Part shown: one piece after another, positions 1 through 9,720 of the stretch | How positions within the stretch are numbered: the first letter of the stretch is position 1 | How the letters are laid out: each line of letters starts with the position of its first letter | Source of the DNA: Clostridiales bacterium | GTDB taxonomy: Bacteria; Bacillota; Clostridia; Tissierellales; GPF-1 | NCBI GenBank assembly: GCA_013619125.1 | Contig: JABXKS010000006.1 | Location: 1 to 38,123, forward strand | Length of the DNA stretch: 38,123 bases | Direction of reading: 5' to 3' | Translations under genes and position numbers: made by a program | Notes under the pieces: generated by a model | Database searches by the model: none | What the model saw: only the letters and a program-made list of their open reading frames with translations | Told to the model about the DNA's origin: nothing

Positions 1-769
1 CGTTTTGAAAGGCAGCTTTTGTCAAGATATCTCGCGGTTTGATTTGTTTTTCAACAAGGTTCATCACCCGCATTCCGGCTTCCTTCGCCAATCGCTTTCT
101 AGCAGCATACACTGCTGGAATCGTTCCATTGCCTGAAAGACCCATCCCCAGCGCTTCCGTCATGCAGTTCATCGAGTTTGCCGTAAACATCCCCGAGCAA
201 GATCCGCAAGTTGGACAAGCGTCATCCTCCAGCTCCACCAGAGATTCTAAGGACATCTTGCCCATGGCTTCCATGCCTACACCCTCGAAGACCGTGATCA
301 AATCCACATCCTTGTTTTTGTGTCGGCCTTTCAGCATCGGACCACCGCTGACAACCATCGTCGGGATATTCACCCGCGCCGCCGCCATCAACATCCCCGG
401 TACCACCTTGTCGCAGTTGGGAATTAAGACCAATCCGTCAAGACCATGGGCTTTCGCCATAATTTCGATGCTATCAGCAATAATCTCTCGACTCGCCAAG
501 GAGTATTTCATCCCTTCATGGTTCATGGCAATCCCGTCACAAACAGCGATCGCCGGAAACTCAAGGGGGGTTCCCCCAGCCATTAAGACGCCCCGTTTGA
601 CCGCATCCGCAATCTGTCGAAGCTCCACATGGCCCGGAACAATTTCATTGAATGAATTGGCAACCCCAATCAAGGGTCGGCTGATTTCCGCATCCGTCAG
701 CCCTGTTGCCTTCAATAGCGAGCGATGGGGTGCGCGTCCCGCACCCGCCTTCACTCTGTCACTACGCAT
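1..769 (-). CDS. ilvD: Dihydroxy-acid dehydratase, N-terminal part (cut by window edge)
   Basis: Converts 2,3-dihydroxy-isovalerate (or -methylvalerate) to the 2-keto acid, the third common step of valine and isoleucine synthesis. About 256 codons are visible of a family length near 555, so the C-terminal half lies beyond position 1. The translation starts [20 protein letters not shown] and shows the family iron-sulfur and signature motifs: [22 protein letters not shown] and [20 protein letters not shown]. The ATG lies inside the last codons of ilvC, giving an 8-base overlap, so the two genes are translationally coupled and share a transcript. It belongs to the operon led by the tandem attenuators. 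Identity is secure; only the end is missing. Confidence 0.96.
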
Positions 770-1763
770 CTTGTCCGCCGATCCAGCTCATCATGGATCG
801 AAGTTTTTTACCAACTGCTACAATCGGATGCGCGTTTTGCATGCGACGTGCCGCGGAGAAAGTTGGTTGGTTAATTCTATTTTCCATGATCCAGTTTTTT
901 GCGAAGGTTCCGTCTTGAATCTCTGCAAGAACCTGCTTCATCTCTGCTCTTGTATCATCATTGATAATTCGCTTGCCTGTTACGTAATCGCCATACTCGG
1001 CCGTGTTGCTGATTGAGTCTCGCATCTTCTCAAATCCGCCTTCGTAGAAAAGATCCACGATCAACTTCATCTCATGAAGACACTCGAAGTATGCAATTTC
1101 TTCTTGATATCCCGCTTCCACCAAGGTGTCGAAGCCAGCCTTAATCAATTCTGTCGCACCGCCGCAAAGGACTGCCTGCTCGCCGAAAAGATCCGTTTCT
1201 GTTTCTTCCTCAAAGCTTGTCTCCAAGATTCCCGCTCTCATCGCGCCGATTCCTTTGGCATATGCCATGGCGATCTCTCTCGCTTGACCCGTTGCATCCT
1301 GGTAGATCGCGAAAAGTGCTGGAACCCCTTTGCCGTCTTGGTAAACTCGTCGAACCAAGTGACCCGGTCCCTTTGGCGCTACCATAAATACGTCGATATC
1401 TTTTGGTGGACGAATTTGATTGTAATGAATGTTGAATCCATGGGCAAAAGCAATCGCTTTACCGGCTGTCAAATAGGGAGCAACTTCAGTTTCATACACC
1501 TGTGCTTGGCGTGTATCCGGCAATAACATCATAATCACGTCCGACGCCTTCGTCGCTTCCGCTACCGTCATAACCGTCAATCCCATTTCCTCAGCCTTGG
1601 GCCAAGATCGGCTGCCCTCGTACAATCCTACAATGACAGAAGCACCACTCTCTTTCAAGTTCAGCGCGTGAGCGTGTCCCTGGCTTCCAAAGCCTAGAAT
1701 CGCTACTGTCTTTCCTGCAATTACCTCAAAGTTCGCATCCTTATCATAATACATTGTCGCCAT
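762..1763 (-). CDS. ilvC: Ketol-acid reductoisomerase
   Basis: NAD(P)H-dependent isomeroreductase that turns 2-acetolactate into 2,3-dihydroxy-isovalerate, needing two Mg2+. The 333-aa product matches class I enzymes (about 330-340 aa). The dinucleotide fold is seen near the N-terminus in [21 protein letters not shown] (around residues 20-40), followed by the C-terminal knotted helical domain with acidic metal ligands ([12 protein letters not shown], and EC...E in the [17 protein letters not shown] stretch). The ribosome site AAGGAGG overlaps the end of the upstream ACT gene, whose stop is one base before the ATG, so the genes are tightly coupled. The 3' end overlaps ilvD by 8 bases. Assignment is secure. 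Confidence 0.97.
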
Positions 1764-1764
1764 T

Positions 1765-2010
1765 TTATACTTCCTCCTTAATTAATTGAATTGAATTTAC
1801 ATCAACAAGCTTTGCTAATTGCCGCATCGCTCGATTGGCTGTCATAGGGTTGGTTCCATTTAAATAGATATGCATTTCATGGCTGCCTGATTTAGAGGGG
1901 ATCGCCTGCAAGTTCATACCAGAGATTTCAAATTCTTTCCTTCTCAATGTGTTGGAAACACGAACAAAACTATCCATTCCTTTTTCTAATTTCGCGTATA
2001 TGGTTTGCAT
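1765..2010 (-). CDS. Short ACT-domain protein, IlvM/IlvN-like, second copy
   Basis: An 81-aa protein that is one ACT domain ([20 protein letters not shown]... ending [10 protein letters not shown]), the size of the short acetolactate-synthase regulatory subunit IlvM. ACT domains bind amino acids; here the likely ligand is valine, leucine or isoleucine. It is a tandem paralogue of the gene just upstream (2023-2265): the first 35 or so residues are almost identical, and the copies diverge in the middle ([14 protein letters not shown] against SEPGKHEMQITLHG). No acetolactate synthase large subunit (IlvB) is in the window; it may lie past ilvD. The function is inferred from the ACT fold and the operon, so the symbol is left blank. 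Confidence 0.85.
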
Positions 2011-2022
2011 CTCTTTCCCTCC

Positions 2023-2265
2023 TTAGGCTTCCTGGATTAATTGAATCGAATTGACATCAATCAACTTTGCTAATTGCCGCATTGCTCGATTGGCTATCAT
2101 AGGGTTAGTTCCATGTAAGGTGATCTGCATTTCATGTTTGCCTGGTTCAGAAGGAATCACCTGCAAATTCATTCCGGAAATTTCAAATTCTTTTCTTCTC
2201 AATGTATTAGATACGCGGATAAAACTATCCATTCCTTTTTCTAATTTCGCATAAATTGTTTGCAT
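2023..2265 (-). CDS. Short ACT-domain protein, IlvM/IlvN-like, first copy
   Basis: An 80-aa single ACT domain beginning [20 protein letters not shown] and ending NSIQLIQEA. A longer open frame reaches 2349, but the start at 2265 is chosen because it has AAAGGAGG just before it, aligns exactly with the start of the neighbouring paralogue, and because the upstream part would run through a transcription terminator. It is the first gene after the second attenuator terminator (2294-2323), so its expression depends on read-through there. Probable role: branched-chain amino acid sensing subunit of acetolactate synthase. Two near-identical ACT genes in a row are unusual; they might form a heterodimer or serve two synthases. 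Confidence 0.85.
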   Translation of the reverse strand: MQTIYAKLEKGMDSFIRVSNTLRRKEFEISGMNLQVIPSEPGKHEMQITLHGTNPMIANRAMRQLAKLIDVNSIQLIQEA

Positions 2266-2286
2266 TGTTTTTCCTCCTTTGGCTTC

Positions 2287-2323
2287 ATAAAAAAAACGGG
2301 ACGTTCCGAAGAACGTCCCGTTT
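2287..2323 (-). terminator. Attenuator terminator 1 (downstream copy)
   Basis: On the minus-strand RNA a perfect 13-bp stem (AAACGGGACGTTC with GAACGTCCCGTTT, 2294-2323) is capped by a UUCG tetraloop and followed by a run of about eight U. It lies between the stop of leader peptide 1 (2346) and the first ACT gene (start 2265). Its place and strength make it the regulated terminator of an attenuator rather than an operon end. Confidence 0.93.
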
Positions 2324-2345
2324 AGTAATATTGACTTAATCAACA

Positions 2346-2549
2346 TCAATACAATGGGTTCACTCTTTCGAAATCACTTTGAAATTGTTTGCTCAAGACG
2401 ACGACTAGGCCGACGAGAATGAGGTTTACGAGCACGACGACGAGACCCACGAGTACGACGAGTACTGGGACCAAGAGAAGTGCGAGTGTGCCCAAGATCG
2501 GGGCAACCATATTCACGTTGTTTGAGAAATGCGATTTCATTGTATTCAT
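2346..2549 (-). CDS. Leader peptide 1 of the ilv attenuator (67 aa, Leu/Val/Ile-rich)
   Basis: A 67-codon ORF starting MNTMKSHFSNNVNM, preceded by GGAGTGAAAATC. Of residues 15-52, 29 of 38 are Leu, Val or Ile, with runs such as LALLLVPVLVVLVGLVVVL. It ends SDFERVNPLY at a TGA just before terminator 1. Known ilv leader peptides work by ribosome stalling at these codons when charged tRNA is scarce, allowing transcription past the terminator; this role is inferred here from composition and position. Leader 2 upstream matches it at both ends (FSNNxNM near the start, ERxNPLY near the end), so both ORFs are under selection or recently duplicated. It could also be read as a one-pass membrane peptide, but near exclusion of Phe and Ala argues for a codon sensor. 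An upstream in-frame extension to 2603 is rejected because it starts next to terminator 2. Confidence 0.85.
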   Translation of the reverse strand: MNTMKSHFSNNVNMVAPILGTLALLLVPVLVVLVGLVVVLVNLILVGLVVVLSKQFQSDFERVNPLY

Positions 2550-2600
2550 GATTTTCACTCCAATTTCAATTCCTTCAGAATAGTGGGATCGAACCTTTTC

Positions 2601-2637
2601 CATAAAAAAAACGGGCCGTTCCGAAGAACGCCCCGTT
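2601..2637 (-). terminator. Attenuator terminator 2 (upstream copy)
   Basis: Second hairpin of the same design: 13-bp arms (2609-2621 and 2626-2637/8) around a UUCG loop, with one G-G mismatch in the stem, then a run of eight U. It follows the stop of leader peptide 2 (2655) and precedes the ribosome site of leader peptide 1. Sequence similarity with terminator 1 shows the whole leader-terminator unit is duplicated. Confidence 0.92.
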
Positions 2638-2654
2638 TGGTAATTTTCACCAAA

Positions 2655-2807
2655 TTAACACAGATACAATGGGTTCGATCTTTCGCAACAATTTTGAATT
2701 TTATTTTCGACCACGACGACTAGGCCCACGAGTGCGACGAGCACAGGGACCAAGATGAGGACGAGCATATTCAAATTGTTTGAAAAGATTGTGTTCATTG
2801 CATTCAT
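2655..2807 (-). CDS. Leader peptide 2 of the ilv attenuator (50 aa, Leu/Val/Ile-rich)
   Basis: A 50-codon ORF, MNAMNTIFSNNLNM followed by a block in which 16 of 19 residues (15-33) are Leu, Val or Ile, then ending ERSNPLYLC and TAA. The start has GGAGTGAAGATC before the ATG, nearly the same as leader 1. The codons used in the block are mainly CTC, GTC, GTG, TTG and ATC. It is the first translated unit after the strong promoter at 2878-2906 and is followed by terminator 2. Compared with leader 1 it lacks about 17 residues within the hydrophobic block. Role by analogy with ilv/leu leader peptides: senses supply of charged Leu, Val and Ile tRNAs. No protein function beyond this is expected. Confidence 0.85.
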   Translation of the reverse strand: MNAMNTIFSNNLNMLVLILVPVLVALVGLVVVVENKIQNCCERSNPLYLC

Positions 2808-2877
2808 GATCTTCACTCCAATTTTAGACTGCTTTCAGAAAGTTCGGTTTCGTTAATCAATTCGTAATATTAATCTG

Positions 2878-2906
2878 ATTATAAGGGCCGGGAAGCTCCC
2901 TGTCAA
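2878..2906 (-). promoter_or_regulatory. Strong sigma-A promoter of the attenuator-ACT-ilvCD operon
   Basis: Minus strand: consensus -35 TTGACA (2901-2906), 17-base spacer, consensus -10 TATAAT (2878-2883). The spacer holds a small palindrome (GGGAGCTTCCC). It lies 45 bases past the leuB stop; no terminator is visible between, so leu transcripts may also read into it. Confidence 0.93.
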
Positions 2907-2951
2907 CACCTTTTATTGCATTTACTTAACATTTCGGTAAAGTATGACGTT

Positions 2952-4010
2952 TTACTTCGCGATCTCACGGACAATTGCCTCTGTCAGCTGTTCAGTCGTT
3001 CGGATTTCACATCCCGGCTGCATCAAATCACCGGTGCGCTCTCCCCGTTCCAATACCACAGAAACAGCTTTTTCAATTTGTTCCGCTAGATCTTTTCGCT
3101 TCAGGCTATGGATGCAAAGCATGGCCATGGACAGAATCGCCGCAACAGGATTCGCCTTGCCCTGTCCCGCAATATCCGGTGCCGATCCGTGGATTGGTTC
3201 GTACAACGCCTTGCTCTCCCCAATGGAAGCAGAGGGCAACAGGCCGATGGACCCAACCAATACACTCGCCTCATCGGACAAGATGTCTCCAAAAATATTA
3301 TTCGTTACCATCACATCAAATTGACCCGGATCCCGAATCAATTGCATGGCGGCATTGTCCACATATAGATGATCCAATGCAACATCTGGATACTCCAAAG
3401 CCACCTCTTCCATCACACGTCTCCATAGCCGAGAACTGGCCAAGACATTGGCTTTGTCCACACTGGTGACACGCTTATCTCTTGTTTGCGCCGTATGAAA
3501 CGCCACATGAGCAATACGAGTAACCTCTTTCCGTGAATATTTCTCCTCGTCTGAGGCAACATTATCGCCTTCTTGACGAGCGCCGAAATAGATGCCACCA
3601 GTCAACTCCCGTACAATCACCATATCAATACCATTTTTCATACGATCCGCCTTCAATGGCGACATGTCCTCCAGTCCGGCAAACATTCGAACCGGTCGAA
3701 GATTCGCATAGGTCTCTAGGGTTGAGCGCAGGGCCAACAGACCTCGTTCTGGACGAAGGGAAACAGGCATTTCATTCCATTTCTCGCCCCCGACCGCACC
3801 TAAGAAAACCGCATCCGATTTCATTGCCGTTACTTTTGACGCCTCCGGGAAGGGTTCCCCCGTCGCATCGATGGCAGCGCCGCCGATTAATGCCTCATTG
3901 ATTTCATACTCGATTCCCGCTTGCTTCGCGATCGTTTCAAAAACAGCAAGGGCAGATTTTGTGACCTCTGGCCCAATCCCATCCCCGGGACAAACACATA
4001 ATTTAAACAT
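2952..4010 (-). CDS. leuB: 3-isopropylmalate dehydrogenase
   Basis: NAD-dependent oxidative decarboxylation of 3-isopropylmalate to 2-ketoisocaproate, step three of leucine synthesis. The 352-aa length fits the family. Visible motifs: CPGDGIGPEV at the N-terminus, LLALRSTLETYANLRP with the substrate-binding arginines, IVRELTGGIYFG, and the metal-binding/NAD region around NNIFGDILSDEASVLVGSIGLLPSASIG and YEPIHGSAPDIAGQGKANP. The ATG lies within the last codons of leuD (8-base overlap), so it is the last gene of the leuACDB unit. No clear terminator follows it before the next promoter. Confidence 0.97.
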   Translation of the reverse strand: MFKLCVCPGDGIGPEVTKSALAVFETIAKQAGIEYEINEALIGGAAIDATGEPFPEASKVTAMKSDAVFLGAVGGEKWNEMPVSLRPERGLLALRSTLETYANLRPVRMFAGLEDMSPLKADRMKNGIDMVIVRELTGGIYFGARQEGDNVASDEEKYSRKEVTRIAHVAFHTAQTRDKRVTSVDKANVLASSRLWRRVMEEVALEYPDVALDHLYVDNAAMQLIRDPGQFDVMVTNNIFGDILSDEASVLVGSIGLLPSASIGESKALYEPIHGSAPDIAGQGKANPVAAILSMAMLCIHSLKRKDLAEQIEKAVSVVLERGERTGDLMQPGCEIRTTEQLTEAIVREIAK

Positions 4011-4497
4011 TTTGCTTCTCCTTTTGCTGCTTCACGTAATTCTCCAATCCACCCATATCAATCATATCTTGCAAGAACGGCGGATAAGGAGCCATCTCCC
4101 ACTCGCATCCCTTGGTTTCATTCTTGATGATGCCAGCTGTCAGATCCACAGAAATTGAATCTCCAGACTCGATACCTTCCACAGCTTCTGGACACGCCAC
4201 AATAGGAAGCCCCACATTGATGGCATTTCTAAAGAAGATCCGCGCAAAGCTCTTGGCGATCACAACAGTGACTCCCGCGCCACGAATAGCCAATGGCGCA
4301 TGCTCGCGAGACGATCCGCAGCCAAAGTTTTCACCCGCTACGATCATATCTCCCGGGTTGACCTTCTCAACAAAACTTGGATCCAAATCCATCATGCAAT
4401 ATCCGCCCAATACCTTTGCATCGCTTGTATCTAAAAAACGAGCGGGGATAATCACATCCGTATCGATATGATCCCCGTAACAAAATGCTTGATTCAT
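4003..4497 (-). CDS. leuD: 3-isopropylmalate dehydratase small subunit
   Basis: Small (swivelling) subunit of isopropylmalate isomerase, which pairs with LeuC to interconvert 2- and 3-isopropylmalate. The 164-aa product has [14 protein letters not shown] near the start and the substrate-binding loop [12 protein letters not shown], both typical of the short LeuD type found with clostridial and archaeal LeuC. The start at 4497 is chosen because the ATG overlaps the leuC stop in ATGA and has GGAGGAACG before it; a frame extending to 4518 would lie inside leuC without its own ribosome site. Overlaps leuB by 8 bases. Confidence 0.96.
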
Positions 4498-5771
4498 GAT
4501 CGTTCCTCCTTCGTCCAAGTGCCTGGTGCCGCGATGATTCCTTGAATCGCGGATTCCGCTGCAACTGCCGGACTAGCCAAATATACCTCGGACTCCACAT
4601 GACCCATGCGGCCGACAAAATTTCGATTGGTTGTGGCAACAGCGCGTTCGCCCTTTGCCAATACTCCCATATGCCCGCCCAAACATGGACCACAGGTTGG
4701 CGGACTGATAACCGCTCCCGCATCCAAAAAGACATCAAAGTATCCGGCGTGCATGGCCTGGCGATAGATTTTCTGGGTTGCCGGGAAGATCAAAACCCGA
4801 ACCCCCTTCTTCACCTTACGCCCCTTGAATACCTCGGCAGCAATGCGAAGGTCATCCAATCTGCCGTTGGTGCAGGACCCAATCACCACTTGATCAATGA
4901 CGATCTCCTCCACATCTTCAATCCGTTTCGTATTCTCCGGCAGATGCGGGAAGGCTACTGTCGGCGACAAGGTTGCCAGATCGATCTTAACTTCACGCAC
5001 ATATTCCGCGTCGCTGTCCGCTTCGAAAATCTTCGGCTCCTTGGCGCCCGATTCTTTCAAGTATGCCAAAGTCTGCTCGTCTACAGGGAATATCCCATTT
5101 TTTGCGCCCGCTTCAATGGCCATATTTGCGATGGTGAATCGATCGTCCATGGTAAGGTTTTTAATGCCGTCTCCCACAAACTCCAGGGACTGATAGGTTG
5201 CCCCATCGACACCCAACTCACCGATCAGGGTTAAAATCACATCCTTGCCCGACACCCATTTCGGCATCTTGCCCGTCAATTCCACCCGAATGGCTTCCGG
5301 TACACGAAACCAGGTTTTGCCCATGGCCATGCCAGCTGCCATATCGGTACTGCCAACGCCGGTGGCGAAGGCGCCCAATGCACCGTATGTACAGGTATGA
5401 GAATCGGCTCCGATAATCACCTGACCAGCACTGACCAATCCTTTTTCAGGAAGCAGCGCATGCTCAATGCCGACTTCCCCCACCTCAAAGTAATTGGTAA
5501 TCTCTTGATCAAGAGCGAAATTTCGCACCTTTTGACATTGCATGGCCGCACGAATGTCGCGGTTCGGCGTAAAGTGATCCGGTACGATGACGACTTTGTC
5601 CTTATCAAACACGGTAACTGCTTCCATTCGTTCAAAGGCATCTTGGGCAACTGGGGTGGTGATGTCATTGCCTAAGACAATATCTAAATTGGCTAAGATA
5701 AACTCTCCCGCTTCCACCTCCGACTTTCCGCAAGCTTGTGCAAAAATTTTCTGTGTCATGGTCATTTTCAT
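4494..5771 (-). CDS. leuC: 3-isopropylmalate dehydratase large subunit
   Basis: Aconitase-family large subunit carrying a [4Fe-4S] cluster. The 425-aa length is that of the shorter LeuC subtype paired with a free LeuD. Cluster cysteines are seen in [12 protein letters not shown] and in [15 protein letters not shown]; other family marks are DHFTPNRDI and [24 protein letters not shown]. The start at 5771 is chosen because it forms an ATGA overlap with the leuA stop and has AAAGGAG upstream; an open frame reaching 5798 has no better site. [16 protein letters not shown] beginning fits the family. Confidence 0.96.
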
Positions 5772-7285
5772 GCTTGACGCTCCTTTCGCTGCTCCCATCG
5801 ATTCACTCCATGCAAGAATGCCTGGATACTACTCTCGATAATATCGGTGCTGACCCCGCGACCCGAAATTGGTTCGCCATTAATTTCCAACTTCAATCGA
5901 ACTTCCCCTTGGGCATCTCCGCCGTCGGTTACCGCCTCGATCTTATAATCGATCAATCGAATCTCTGCGTCCACCGCTTTGCGCATGGCTTGATACGCCG
6001 CATCAATTGGTCCATCGCCAATGGCAACTGTCTCAATGTCTTCGCCATCGTGATCAATAACCACAACCGCTGTTGATGTCATCTCATTTCCTGTATTGAT
6101 GACGAATCGCTTTAAGCGATATTTCACATTCTCCTCGCCGACCTTACTTGCCAACAACGCTTCCAAGTCCTCGTCATAGATCGTCTTCTTGCGATCGCAA
6201 AGATCTTTGAACTGCTTGAAGATATTCTCAAACTCATCTGGCTCGATCTCATAGCCCATCTCAACAATGCGGTCCTTCAAGGCATGTTTCCCAGAGTGCT
6301 TGCCCAAGACCAATCTTGTTTGGCGAATCCCAACACTCTCCGGTGTCATAATTTCATAGGTCGTACGCTCGTTCAACATCCCATGCTGATGAATCCCCGA
6401 CTCATGGGCAAAGGCGTTGGCGCCGACAATCGCCTTATGGGGCTGTACCTTCACCCCGGTGATCGTTGTTAATAATTCACTGGATCTAGCGATCTCTGTG
6501 GTGACAATCCCACATTCCACCTGCATCTTATCGCGTCGTGTGTGCATCGCCATCACGATTTCTTCCAAGGCGGCATTCCCTGCCCGCTCGCCGATTCCAT
6601 TCACGGTGCATTCCACCTGGTCGGCACCGGCACGAATAGCTGCCCAGCTATTGGCCACGCCCATGCCTAAATCATTGTGACAATGAACCGAAATTCTTGC
6701 TCGCTCGATATTCGGCACGGTGTTTTTCAAATGACTGATCAATTCAAAATATTCTTCCGGCGTCGTATAACCAACGGTGTCTGGAATATTGACAGTGGTT
6801 GCCCCCGCATGAATCACTGCCTGAACGATCTGAGTCAAGTAATTCCAATCGGAACGCGTCGCGTCCTCTGCGGAGAACTCCACATCCGATAAGTAATGCT
6901 TCGCATGTTTGACGGCTGCTACAGCCGATTCAATCGCTTGTTCTCGGCTCATGCGCAATTTGTGCTGTAAATGGATATCCGATGTGGCAATAAAGGTATG
7001 AATCCGTGGAGCCACACCCCCTTTAACCGCTTCGTATGCCCGATCAATATCACGCGGCAATGAACGAGCCAAGGAAGCCACCGATGTATTTTTCATTGCA
7101 TTGGCAATGGTTTGTATCGCTTGAAAATCTCCTTCGGAGGCAATCGCAAATCCCGCCTCGAGAACATCAACACCCATTTTTTCCAATTGGCGAGCCATTC
7201 GTAATTTTTCCTGAATCGTCATGCTGCAACCTGGAGATTGTTCTCCGTCTCGTAACGTTGTATCAAAAATCATAATTTTTCTCAT
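5768..7285 (-). CDS. leuA: 2-isopropylmalate synthase
   Basis: Condenses acetyl-CoA with 2-ketoisovalerate, the committed step of leucine synthesis. The 505-aa product has the DRE-TIM barrel signature [13 protein letters not shown] near the N-terminus, the metal-binding HxH in [15 protein letters not shown], and [18 protein letters not shown]-terminal allosteric (LeuA dimer/leucine-binding) domain follows from about residue 370, so feedback by leucine is likely. The start at 7285 has GGGAGGAG before it; a longer frame to 7336 runs back through the T-box terminator and is rejected. Expression is governed by the T-box leader just upstream. Citramalate synthase is a possible alternative activity, but the leuCDB context favours LeuA. 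Confidence 0.95.
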
Positions 7286-7320: not shown

Positions 7321-7348
7321 AAATAGCCCGTCCCAAAAGGGACGGACT
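7321..7348 (-). terminator. T-box regulated terminator upstream of leuA
   Basis: Minus-strand hairpin formed by AGTCCGTCCC and GGGACGGGCT (7325-7348) with a UUUU loop, then a U-rich tract. It directly follows the T-box sequence, which would otherwise pair into the antiterminator. Confidence 0.92.
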
Positions 7349-7531
7349 TACTCCGCGGTACCACCCTAGTTGCCCGATTGGGCCACTCGTGTTTTCTTAA
7401 CGGGAATTCCCGGGATCCTCTACTTCATTCAAGAATCCAGCTCCGGAGGGAGTACTAAGTGCAAGAACTGTCGATTTCCACCACCCATCGACTCTCTGTG
7501 AGTTCTTTTGCCCTTAGGCTCTCCATCTACG
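7321..7531 (-). promoter_or_regulatory. T-box leader, probably leucine-specific, for leuACDB
   Basis: The minus strand holds a full T-box: the conserved AGGGTGGTACCGCG (within 7353-7367), a terminator (7325-7348), and a Stem I region near 7448-7525 with the AGAGAG and GGTGGTGGAA elements in a hairpin closed by GTCGAT/ATCGAC and AGAACT/AGTTCT. T-boxes bind a specific uncharged tRNA and switch off the terminator. The best candidate specifier is CUU (Leu, 7457-7459), followed by A, but the specifier loop was folded by eye and this is not certain. Stem I starts about 15 bases after the ilvA stop codon, so the leader sits inside what may be one ilvA-leu transcript. Confidence 0.92.
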
Positions 7532-7532
7532 C

Positions 7533-8735
7533 TTAATATACGCGCTGCAAGGAATATCCTTGCGCTTCTAATTTTCCAATCACATTGGCGATATGGTCAT
7601 GACCATTGGTTTCAACCGTCAATTCCAACGCCACCCGCATCAATCGATCGAGTGCTTTAAACTGATTGTGTTCAATTTTGACGATATTGGCGTTTGCTTC
7701 AGCGAGGATCTTCGAAATATTCAACAGCTCCCCCGGCTTGTCCGGCAACTCCAACGTAAAGCAAAAGAGTCTGCCCCGACTGATCAGGGAACGATTGATC
7801 ATCTCTGAAACACTTACCACATCGATATTGCCGCCGCTGACGACACATACGATCTTCTTTCCCCAAACCTTGAGTTTCTTCAAGGCAGCCAGGGGAAGAA
7901 TTCCGGCTGATTCTGCAATCATCTTATGCTTTTCTATCAAGATTGTAAAGATCTCCAGCAATTCTCTATCGTCAATGGTAATAATTTCATCGACATATTT
8001 CTGCACGATTGTAAAGGCTTTTTCTCCCGGTGTTCGCACCGCGACACCCTCTGCAACCGTTGATACCACTTCCAATTGCACAATGGATTTCTTTCGAATG
8101 GAGTGCCCCAGGGTCTGCGCCCCTTCCGGCTCAACACCAATAATCCGCACATTGGGATTTTTCTCCTTGATCGCGAGGCAAATGCCACTGATCAATCCAC
8201 CGCCGCCTACAGGAACCAGTATGATATCCACATCTTCCACTTCTTCAAGGATCTCAAGACCGATAGTACCTTGGCCATAAATCACATCCCAATCATCAAA
8301 TGGATGAATAAAAACAGCGCCCGTCTCTTTCTGGATCCGCCTCGCCTCCGCATAAGCATCGTCGTAGACTTCTCCATGCAATATGACTTCCGCACCATAA
8401 TTGCGGGTCGCTTCGATTTTAATCAATGGTGTCACATTAGGCATCACGATGGTTGCCTTTACACCCAATTGCTGCGCCGCATAAGCGACACCCTGCGCAT
8501 GATTCCCTGCTGATGAGCAAATAACACCGCAAGCGCGTTCCTCTTCTGTCAATTTCGAGATCCGATGATAGGCGCCTCGAATCTTAAACGCACCGGTTTT
8601 TTGGTAGTTTTCCGGCTTGATATAGACCTCATTGCCACTCATCTGACTGAAGTACTCACTGTAGATGACAGGTGTCGGATGAATAATGCCGCGTAAATTT
8701 TTTCTTGCTTCTTCTATCTGTTTTACTGAATCCAA
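7533..8735 (-). CDS. ilvA: Threonine ammonia-lyase (threonine dehydratase) with ACT domain
   Basis: PLP enzyme deaminating threonine to 2-ketobutyrate, entry to isoleucine synthesis. The 400-aa product matches the shorter form: a catalytic domain with the PLP lysine in KTGAFKIRGA (Lys51), SSAGNHAQGVA and the phosphate-binding VPVGGGGLISG, then a single ACT domain from about residue 325 (RLFCFTLELPDKPGELLNIS). The start is TTG at 8735, preceded by GGGGGAAGG; no ATG fits better. A consensus promoter lies about 40 bases upstream. Its stop is only some 15 bases before the T-box Stem I, so leu genes could be co-transcribed. A catabolic role (TdcB-like) is possible, but biosynthetic neighbours favour ilvA. 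Confidence 0.93.
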   Translation of the reverse strand: MDSVKQIEEARKNLRGIIHPTPVIYSEYFSQMSGNEVYIKPENYQKTGAFKIRGAYHRISKLTEEERACGVICSSAGNHAQGVAYAAQQLGVKATIVMPNVTPLIKIEATRNYGAEVILHGEVYDDAYAEARRIQKETGAVFIHPFDDWDVIYGQGTIGLEILEEVEDVDIILVPVGGGGLISGICLAIKEKNPNVRIIGVEPEGAQTLGHSIRKKSIVQLEVVSTVAEGVAVRTPGEKAFTIVQKYVDEIITIDDRELLEIFTILIEKHKMIAESAGILPLAALKKLKVWGKKIVCVVSGGNIDVVSVSEMINRSLISRGRLFCFTLELPDKPGELLNISKILAEANANIVKIEHNQFKALDRLMRVALELTVETNGHDHIANVIGKLEAQGYSLQRVY

Positions 8736-8844: not shown

Positions 8845-9720
8845 TTATATTCCCTGAATTAGATTCTTTAGCCATCCGATACCTTCAATCTCACAATCAA
8901 CACAATCGCCTGAATTCAATGTCTTCGGCGGTGTGAATCCCATGCCTACCCCGGCTGGCGTACCCGTTAAAATAATATCTCCAGGAAAGAGCGTGAAATT
9001 TTTCGACAAATCAGATAAAGTCGTTTCAACGGAGAAAATCAGGTTGTCCGTCTCCGATTCTTGACGCAACTCTCCATTGACAAACGAACGAATTTTTCGC
9101 TTCAAAGGAAACTCCACAGCGTCTGCCAACACCCAAAATGCGCCCATGGGGAAGGTATTGTCGATGGATTTTCCCTTCAGCCATTGCTGATGGCGTCGCT
9201 GCGCCGCGCGATCTGTCAAATCATTCACCACCGTATAGGCAAAGATATGAGACTTAGCATCCTCTGGAGCGATATTACTTCCCTCTTTTCCAATAATCAA
9301 AGCCAATTCCACTTCATAGTCCAACTCGCATCCCGAAGACAAATCCACCCGCAGGGTCTCTGCCGGTCCCATAATACGGTTCACCATCTTCCCAAAATAG
9401 ATGGGCGCAGTCGGCACTCCGTTGGCTTGCCCAGGCAATGATTTCACCTCATTGGCATGATCTGCATAGTTTTTCCCCAGACAGAGAATTCTCCGCGGCG
9501 GCTGATCAACGGGTGCCAAAAAATCTACACTCTCCAATAAATCATCTCCGGCCTCATCCAGTGCCGATTCCACTTGATCCCATGCCGAAAACGTCTCCAT
9601 TACGCCTGCTAGAGAGTCGCCTTCCATCCCGAAACGCGAGAGCCGTATGAGTCCCGTTTCCGCTTTGTTCACAACCCCCAAGAAAATTCCCTCACTCGTT
9701 CGATACCGACATAGCTTCAT
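8845..9720 (-). CDS. Fumarylacetoacetate hydrolase family protein
   Basis: A 291-aa member of the FAH/2-hydroxyhepta-2,4-diene-1,7-dioate isomerase superfamily: a short N-terminal domain (to about residue 70) and a catalytic domain with ILCLGKNYADHANEV, the acidic metal ligands in SGCELDYEVELALIIGKEG, and GDIILTGTPAGVGMGFTPPK. These enzymes cleave C-C bonds, hydrate or decarboxylate 2-keto acids with Mg2+; the exact substrate cannot be read here. The ATG lies 29 bases inside sbcC, with GGAGGAGGAG within sbcC as ribosome site, so it is translated from the sbcDC transcript. Pairing with DNA-repair genes seems positional rather than functional. Confidence 0.9.
   Translation of the reverse strand: MKLCRYRTSEGIFLGVVNKAETGLIRLSRFGMEGDSLAGVMETFSAWDQVESALDEAGDDLLESVDFLAPVDQPPRRILCLGKNYADHANEVKSLPGQANGVPTAPIYFGKMVNRIMGPAETLRVDLSSGCELDYEVELALIIGKEGSNIAPEDAKSHIFAYTVVNDLTDRAAQRRHQQWLKGKSIDNTFPMGAFWVLADAVEFPLKRKIRSFVNGELRQESETDNLIFSVETTLSDLSKNFTLFPGDIILTGTPAGVGMGFTPPKTLNSGDCVDCEIEGIGWLKNLIQGI

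Follow-up and report, generated by a model that had tools for sequence, protein, structure and literature searches.

How the ilv genes are controlled is the question raised by the DNA studied here, a window of 38,123 nucleotides from a Clostridiales bacterium (contig JABXKS010000006.1) in which the minus strand runs from a promoter through ORF A, terminator A, ORF B and terminator B before it reaches ACT-ACT-ilvC-ilvD. The first-pass annotation, made from the letters of the window, had read this layout as one perfect promoter followed by two units of leader ORF plus terminator, and every element that it named was located:

2878 to 2906, minus strand: sigma-70-type promoter TTGACA-17-TATAAT, 12/12 match, conserved before A in three genomes
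2655 to 2807, minus strand: leader ORF A, 50 codons, with GGAG at 2819-2816 and codons 15-33 rich in Leu/Val
2604 to 2638, minus strand: terminator A, with a UUCG loop, one G.G mismatch and a U tract
2346 to 2549, minus strand: leader ORF B, 67 codons, with GGAG at 2561-2558 and codons 15-52 rich in Leu/Val
2289 to 2323, minus strand: terminator B, with 13 perfect pairs, a UUCG loop and a U tract
2023 to 2265, minus strand: ACT domain protein 1, the first gene after the putative attenuators (PF13710, ACT_5)
1765 to 2010, minus strand: ACT domain protein 2 (PF13710, ACT_5)
762 to 1763, minus strand: ilvC, ketol-acid reductoisomerase (KARI; PF07991 and PF01450)
1 to 769, minus strand: ilvD, dihydroxy-acid dehydratase, truncated by the contig end (PF00920, ILVD_EDD)

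Transcription would start near position 2871. The promoter scan returned this 12/12 promoter as the sole promoter-like site in 1700-4100 and no second one between A and B in the window, and the two complete units share one transcript with no internal promoter, as expected of attenuators in tandem. An intrinsic terminator lies between leader ORF and first gene, as expected of an attenuator, and the distance between the first base of the stop codon and the terminator arm is 12 to 26 bases. Terminator A is the hairpin of terminator B plus the G.G mismatch, and a loose scan caught only its inner 5 pairs. Since sites at the loose level were no commoner than in shuffled sequences (promoters at 9/12, 1 observed versus an average of 4.3 in shuffles; terminators, 3 versus 2.2), weight was placed only on the 12/12 promoter, the 13-pair stem and their conservation. 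Upstream of the promoter lies leuA-leuC-leuD-leuB, with a T-box on leuA:

7335 to 7538, minus strand: T-box leader of leuA-leuC-leuD-leuB (RF00230 match)

The specifier of this T-box we take to be CUC (Leu), by a position rule. No terminator was found between leuB and the promoter in the terminator scan, so leu transcripts may also enter A and B.

Both leaders can be read as longer open frames with upstream starts; we preferred ATG 2807 and ATG 2549 because the ribosome sites point there, the good site that had been noticed on each ORF being a GGAG 8 bases 5' of its ATG. The reported richness in branched-chain amino acid (BCAA) codons was reproduced exactly, with Ile, Leu or Val at 16 of 19 codons in ORF A (codons 15-33) and 29 of 38 in ORF B (codons 15-52), against a background of 22.6% in the 25 longer genes of the window. 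The corresponding binomial P values, 2e-8 for A and 3e-12 for B, are flattering because the cores were picked after inspection. Codon choice is skewed as well: the three leaders of the window genome (A, B and unit C, described below) use CTC for 14 of their 31 leucines (7.5% in genes) and GTC for 16 of their 30 valines (19.0% in genes), and show no skew among Ile codons.

Three genomes were found for the genus (that of the window, G001 and G002), and all of them carry A, B and a further unit, C. The order A-B was constant where checked, in all three, and the two-unit block stands directly before ACT-ilvC in each. The identical TTGACA-17-TATAAT precedes A and C in 3/3 genomes; for the A-B pair in G001 and G002, a promoter was looked for only before A. 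All nine units have GGAG before the ATG, an open ORF and a terminator with a UUCG loop, and the terminator stems hold their pairing through both-sided changes between species. In the window genome, unit C belongs to a second ilv locus (contig C114, locus L034) with the order ilvB, unit C, ACT, ilvC, ilvD, the last two named by likeness. G001 has a single cluster, leuA-leuC-leuD-leuB-[A][B]-ACT-ACT-ilvC-ilvB-[C]-ACT-ilvC-ilvD-ilvB, in which the first ilvB and ilvD were named by Pfam and the rest by likeness to the window genes; a remnant of a third ACT gene sits between its second ACT gene and ilvC (L035, about 6238-6321, plus strand). Unit C is rich in Ile, its run opening with four AUU codons that are identical in the three species (0/42 differences), and A and B have CUC/GUC runs. 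A and B thus both look directed at Leu/Val, with the Ile-directed unit on the other operon. From ribosome site to ATG, divergence with gap columns excluded was 0.03, 0.16 and 0.03 in A, B and C, versus 0.14, 0.36 and 0.21 in the rest of the 5' UTR. Taking these features together, we hold with fair confidence that A and B act in series as ribosome-mediated transcription attenuators.

The RNA of the units has structure of its own. In the lowest-energy folds of full-length units, 19 to 32 pairs link the initial 42 bases of the ORF to its final 60 in 7 of the 9, forming a stem (P1) that encloses the codon run, and a smaller hairpin (P2) lies within the run:

2679 to 2788, minus strand: P1 enclosing stem of unit A, 2788-2769 with 2699-2679, surrounding the codon run
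2808-2796 with 2671-2659, minus strand: outer extension of P1, unit A
2720 to 2754, minus strand: P2 hairpin in the codon run of unit A, 2751-2747 with 2727-2723 and 2744-2741 with 2735-2732
2441 to 2476, minus strand: P2 hairpin in the codon run of unit B

In unit A, P1 pairs the ORF start (UUUUC..AACAAUUUGAAU) with the ORF end (AUUCAAAAUUGUUGCGAAAGA). The N- and C-terminal sequence that the two ORFs had been said to share is indeed present, and these termini coincide with the arms of P1, whose pairing would explain why both peptide ends are alike across units. The two folds that lack P1 are C of G001 (3 pairs) and the window's own B (none). Across the six A and C units, 96.5% of cells pair in P1 and at most 50.7% when the partners are slid, a score taken on the same sequences from which P1 was derived. 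Its covariation in these six units did not exceed that of shuffles (90 of 500 reach it) because there is too little variation. In P2, both-sided changes occur at 3 of 9 pairs, a level matched by 3 of 500 shuffles (8 distinct rows), and pairing fails in 4 of 72 cells, 3 of which belong to a single pair that the C units accommodate in a slightly shifted register; one of five measures, the number of further pair types in P2, did not go beyond shuffles (159 of 500). Compared with codon-permuted versions that encode an identical peptide, the ORF RNA of A and C was more stable (z -3.4 to -6.4), that of the three B units barely so (z -1.2, -2.9 and -1.5). Against ORFs sampled from codon usage the effect was smaller (A, z -1.6 to -2.5; C, z -2.7 to -3.8), and two of the three B units showed no extra stability.

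These differences between units bear on a variant that overlaps with our preferred reading, in which only A (and C) regulates and B is a decaying duplicate that terminates a constant fraction of transcripts. B is the least constrained unit, it diverges more than the others in most stretches, its RNA is weakly constrained, the window's own copy folds without P1, and its core is diluted in G001. Its frame, ribosome site and terminator are nevertheless intact in three genomes, and its terminator stem and loop have changed at only 2 of 84 positions compared. We regard this variant as unlikely, though the most serious of the alternatives, and B may contribute little beyond basal termination.

The peptides gave a different picture from the RNA. 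A had a pN/pS of 0.10 from 8 pairwise differences, B one of 0.76 and C one of 1.00, and Ile/Leu/Val codons were not retained beyond chance (P 0.13 to 0.80), so that the codon conservation proposed earlier as a check did not emerge. Purifying selection at the peptide level thus appears weak and unproven from these comparisons. In a second alternative, a structured RNA, whether riboswitch-like or bound by protein or tRNA, would control the terminators, and the ORFs would be passive or only partly needed. The covariation of P2 gives RNA structure better support than peptide sequence, and the stability of A and C over synonymous controls and the pN/pS of C point the same way, as does a report that codon changes in the ilvB leader of S. 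coelicolor had no effect (cited in the available text of PMC1262725). Against it, all 9 units retain a ribosome site, a start codon and an open frame, the codon run changes with the operon, being Leu/Val for A and B and Ile for C, and no Rfam family reached its gathering score at any unit, the T-box model RF00230 matching only the leuA leader. We judge such a control improbable. That the ORFs encode functional small membrane or type I toxin-like peptides, with mRNAs ending at the hairpins, is highly improbable despite their hydrophobic stretches, the termini common to the units and the low pN/pS of A on few differences, as the shared termini are the two arms of P1, B and C have a pN/pS of 0.76 and 1.00, the A-B block always lies directly before ACT-ilvC in three genomes, and neither selection on the peptide nor a family match was found, A and B having no Pfam match above the cut-off (B had a single sub-threshold match, E 0.0014, to a flagellar export family).

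Ribosome-mediated attenuation, the reading that we prefer, was also searched for an antiterminator. Codon-permuted ORFs offered the terminator 5' arm partners as good as those in the real ORFs (mean z +0.5 over 9 units). Close to the stop codon, an AGA-N5-CCC element was the strongest partner in 8 of 9 units; its AGA and CCC are invariant in 9/9 units, and its pairing is weak (-6.7 to -8.9 kcal/mol); a search with modelled ribosome positions gave no consistent partner. Complementary 9-mers in the window, GATCGAACC at the end of ORF A and GGTTCGATC after terminator A, were treated as chance, GGTTCGATC being missing from that place in G001 and G002. The stalling mechanism of the first-pass annotation therefore stands in part: it is borne out by conserved units at the position of a T-box and finds no antiterminator beyond controls.

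From the layout we infer translation, stalling, the route of readthrough and the signal as follows. A ribosome would begin to translate the leader ORF before RNA polymerase has left the leader. If charged tRNA is ample, the ribosome would reach the stop codon just 5' of the terminator, and transcription would end. When Leu- or Val-tRNA is short, it would stall in the codon run and open P1, and polymerase would read through the terminator, probably because the downstream arm of P1, now free, pairs with the terminator 5' arm. It is very likely that starved ribosomes switch on the ilv genes via A and B, and unit C would work likewise for Ile on the second ilv operon. Since polymerase must clear A and then B, their effects would multiply, on transcripts from the local promoter and on any that enter from the leu operon. 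The steeper or multi-amino-acid response that had been suggested for two units in series may follow, and serial duplication of an attenuator is a simple route to a sharper or deeper switch.

The same genes are controlled otherwise in related genera. Among 20 ACT loci from 18 genomes of other genera in the same order, 18 have an RF00230 T-box on the strand of the gene, no more than about 340 bases upstream; the remaining two (L017 and L018) have at most about 165 bases between the gene and the contig end. By the same position rule, we take the specifier to be AUC (Ile) in 13 of these 18 T-boxes and CUC in 2, with 3 unread. The T-boxes share position, genes and BCAA signal with the units described here, but they sense tRNA directly and without translation, unlike the proposed leaders. 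The occurrence of the units at the T-box position fits attenuation by ribosome stalling. Because of its spread, we infer that the T-box is ancestral; most likely, this genus swapped it for leader-peptide attenuators and kept a Leu T-box on leuA. The result is a natural pair, the same ACT-ilv genes in one order under a T-box or, apparently, under ribosome stalling.

A wider survey started from the 73 of 249 genomes of the order that have ilvC and covered, with one locus per genome, 60 of the 70 that lie outside the genus, the other ten being left out. Upstream stretches of up to 5.9 kb contained a T-box on the ilvC strand in 44 of 60 loci, and in 35 of these the distance to the estimated ilvC start was no more than about 600 bases. 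Six of the 16 loci without a T-box have <900 bases of upstream DNA; among the other ten, a BCAA-rich ORF with a terminator was present in three (G176, G177 and G007), and a relaxed scan found no leader in the remaining seven. The three leaders are:

L094, 4002 to about 3868, minus strand: single 32-codon ilvL-like leader, Ile/Val-rich, with a strong terminator
L127, 2534 to about 2680, plus strand: single 32-codon ilvL-like leader, Ile/Val-rich, with a strong terminator
L099 (G007), 2113-2346, plus strand: BCAA-rich ORF of 77 codons with a terminator, located upstream of ilvC

The first two belong to G176 and G177, of another family of the order, at loci with no T-box at gathering score, and the gene behind them is presumably acetolactate synthase. 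The ORF behind the G007 leader we take to be the small acetolactate synthase subunit; the run of that leader (LILISVIILVVLGLVVLV) resembles the A, B and C units. Scanner matches in L092, L097 and L133, and extra ones at L127 1382 and L099 1600, were dismissed by eye as not leader-like in position or build. Leader-peptide-like control of ilv is thus not unique to this genus within the order, and the tandem form was seen only in this genus among the order loci surveyed.

Homologous units, which had been suggested as something to look for in related clostridia, were found in the three genomes of the genus and not elsewhere in the order or the class sample: outside the genus, unit A DNA matched only chance-like pieces in the 249 order genomes and a 391-genome class sample. 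These pieces are a 39-base match in G007 around a ribosome site, ahead of a gene that we assume to be phosphofructokinase, and 22 identical terminator bases in G392. The unit C peptide had five weak matches in the class sample outside the window genome (E 2.5e-4 to 0.007); two of them fall in long open frames, and the other three are interrupted by stops.

Among known systems, the ilv and leu attenuators of E. coli and Salmonella have the control-codon run, the terminator and the amino-acid logic of the units described here, but their leaders are shorter, there is one unit per operon, and the antiterminator is well defined. The first-pass annotation had named proteobacteria and actinobacteria as groups with known ilv attenuation, a list that omits Firmicutes, where there are the leader-like units of G176, G177 and G007 and the Leu-rich attenuator peptide of the S. 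aureus ilvD leader (Kaiser 2018, PMC5794164, available text). The latter likewise stands before a Firmicute ilv operon, with a BCAA-rich ORF and ribosome site followed by a terminator; in contrast to our units, it is a single ORF of 26 codons with additional CodY control, and the available text of PMC5794164 mentions neither a tandem copy nor an enclosing stem. Two leader ORFs in series do occur in one leader in Salmonella mgtCBR (Lee and Groisman 2012, PMC3641672), but the signals there are ATP and proline and the operon is unrelated; as described in the available part of that paper, mgtCBR does not have two intrinsic terminator sites, unlike the tandem riboswitch leader of B. clausii metE. 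Exchanges between T-box and leader have been reported for hisS/hisZ in bacilli (Naville 2010, PMC2965389), and Firmicute His leaders likewise stand in for T-boxes or a repressor (PMC2965389; Rodionov 2022, PMC9413887); according to the available text of both papers, these leaders respond to His through short His codon runs and have no tandem units. The earlier remark that no such tandem was known agrees with our search, since no case of two BCAA leader-peptide attenuators in series was described in the open-licence literature searched, including the accessible parts of PMC2494555, PMC8632094, PMC1262725 and PMC7858274. What is new here is the tandem BCAA form, as leader-peptide control of ilv and switches from T-box to leader have already been described in Firmicutes.

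These units make it testable whether attenuation by translation works in Firmicutes, a group in which, judging from B. subtilis, polymerase is thought to leave the ribosome behind. Hairpin terminators start 5-21 bases past the stop codon at 7 of the 27 window genes scanned, two of the seven sharing one hairpin between converging genes; an eighth match, inside leuB, was excluded.

At or near 8845, 15607, 16818, 21440, 26004, 33048 and 33109 of the window: stop codons with close terminators

Of 6 further genes scanned, 3 also have a close terminator, namely ilvB in each of three genomes, at a distance of 8 bases. Such short spacing has been tied in B. subtilis to polymerase outrunning the ribosome (available text of PMC7858274, citing Johnson 2020). 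If uncoupling holds here, attenuation needs synchrony of ribosome and polymerase, and we speculate that P2 could keep the two in step. A fuller scenario, rather unlikely as a whole, would have the T-box replaced by a duplicated leader-peptide ladder, with Leu/Val sensed twice in series on one operon and Ile on the other, together with a codon-run hairpin that keeps polymerase and ribosome in step despite the suggested uncoupling.

Two further observations were made. The contigs of the window and of L034 (positions 1-1763 in each) open at a shared position in ilvD, and identity between their ilvD-ilvC copies is about 87-97% in blocks of 150 bases; the contig ends at ilvD may reflect duplication of ilvD-ilvC. 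In L129, two T-boxes (5093-5329 and 5379-5613, plus strand) stand in tandem upstream of ilvC, a counterpart to the tandem attenuators.
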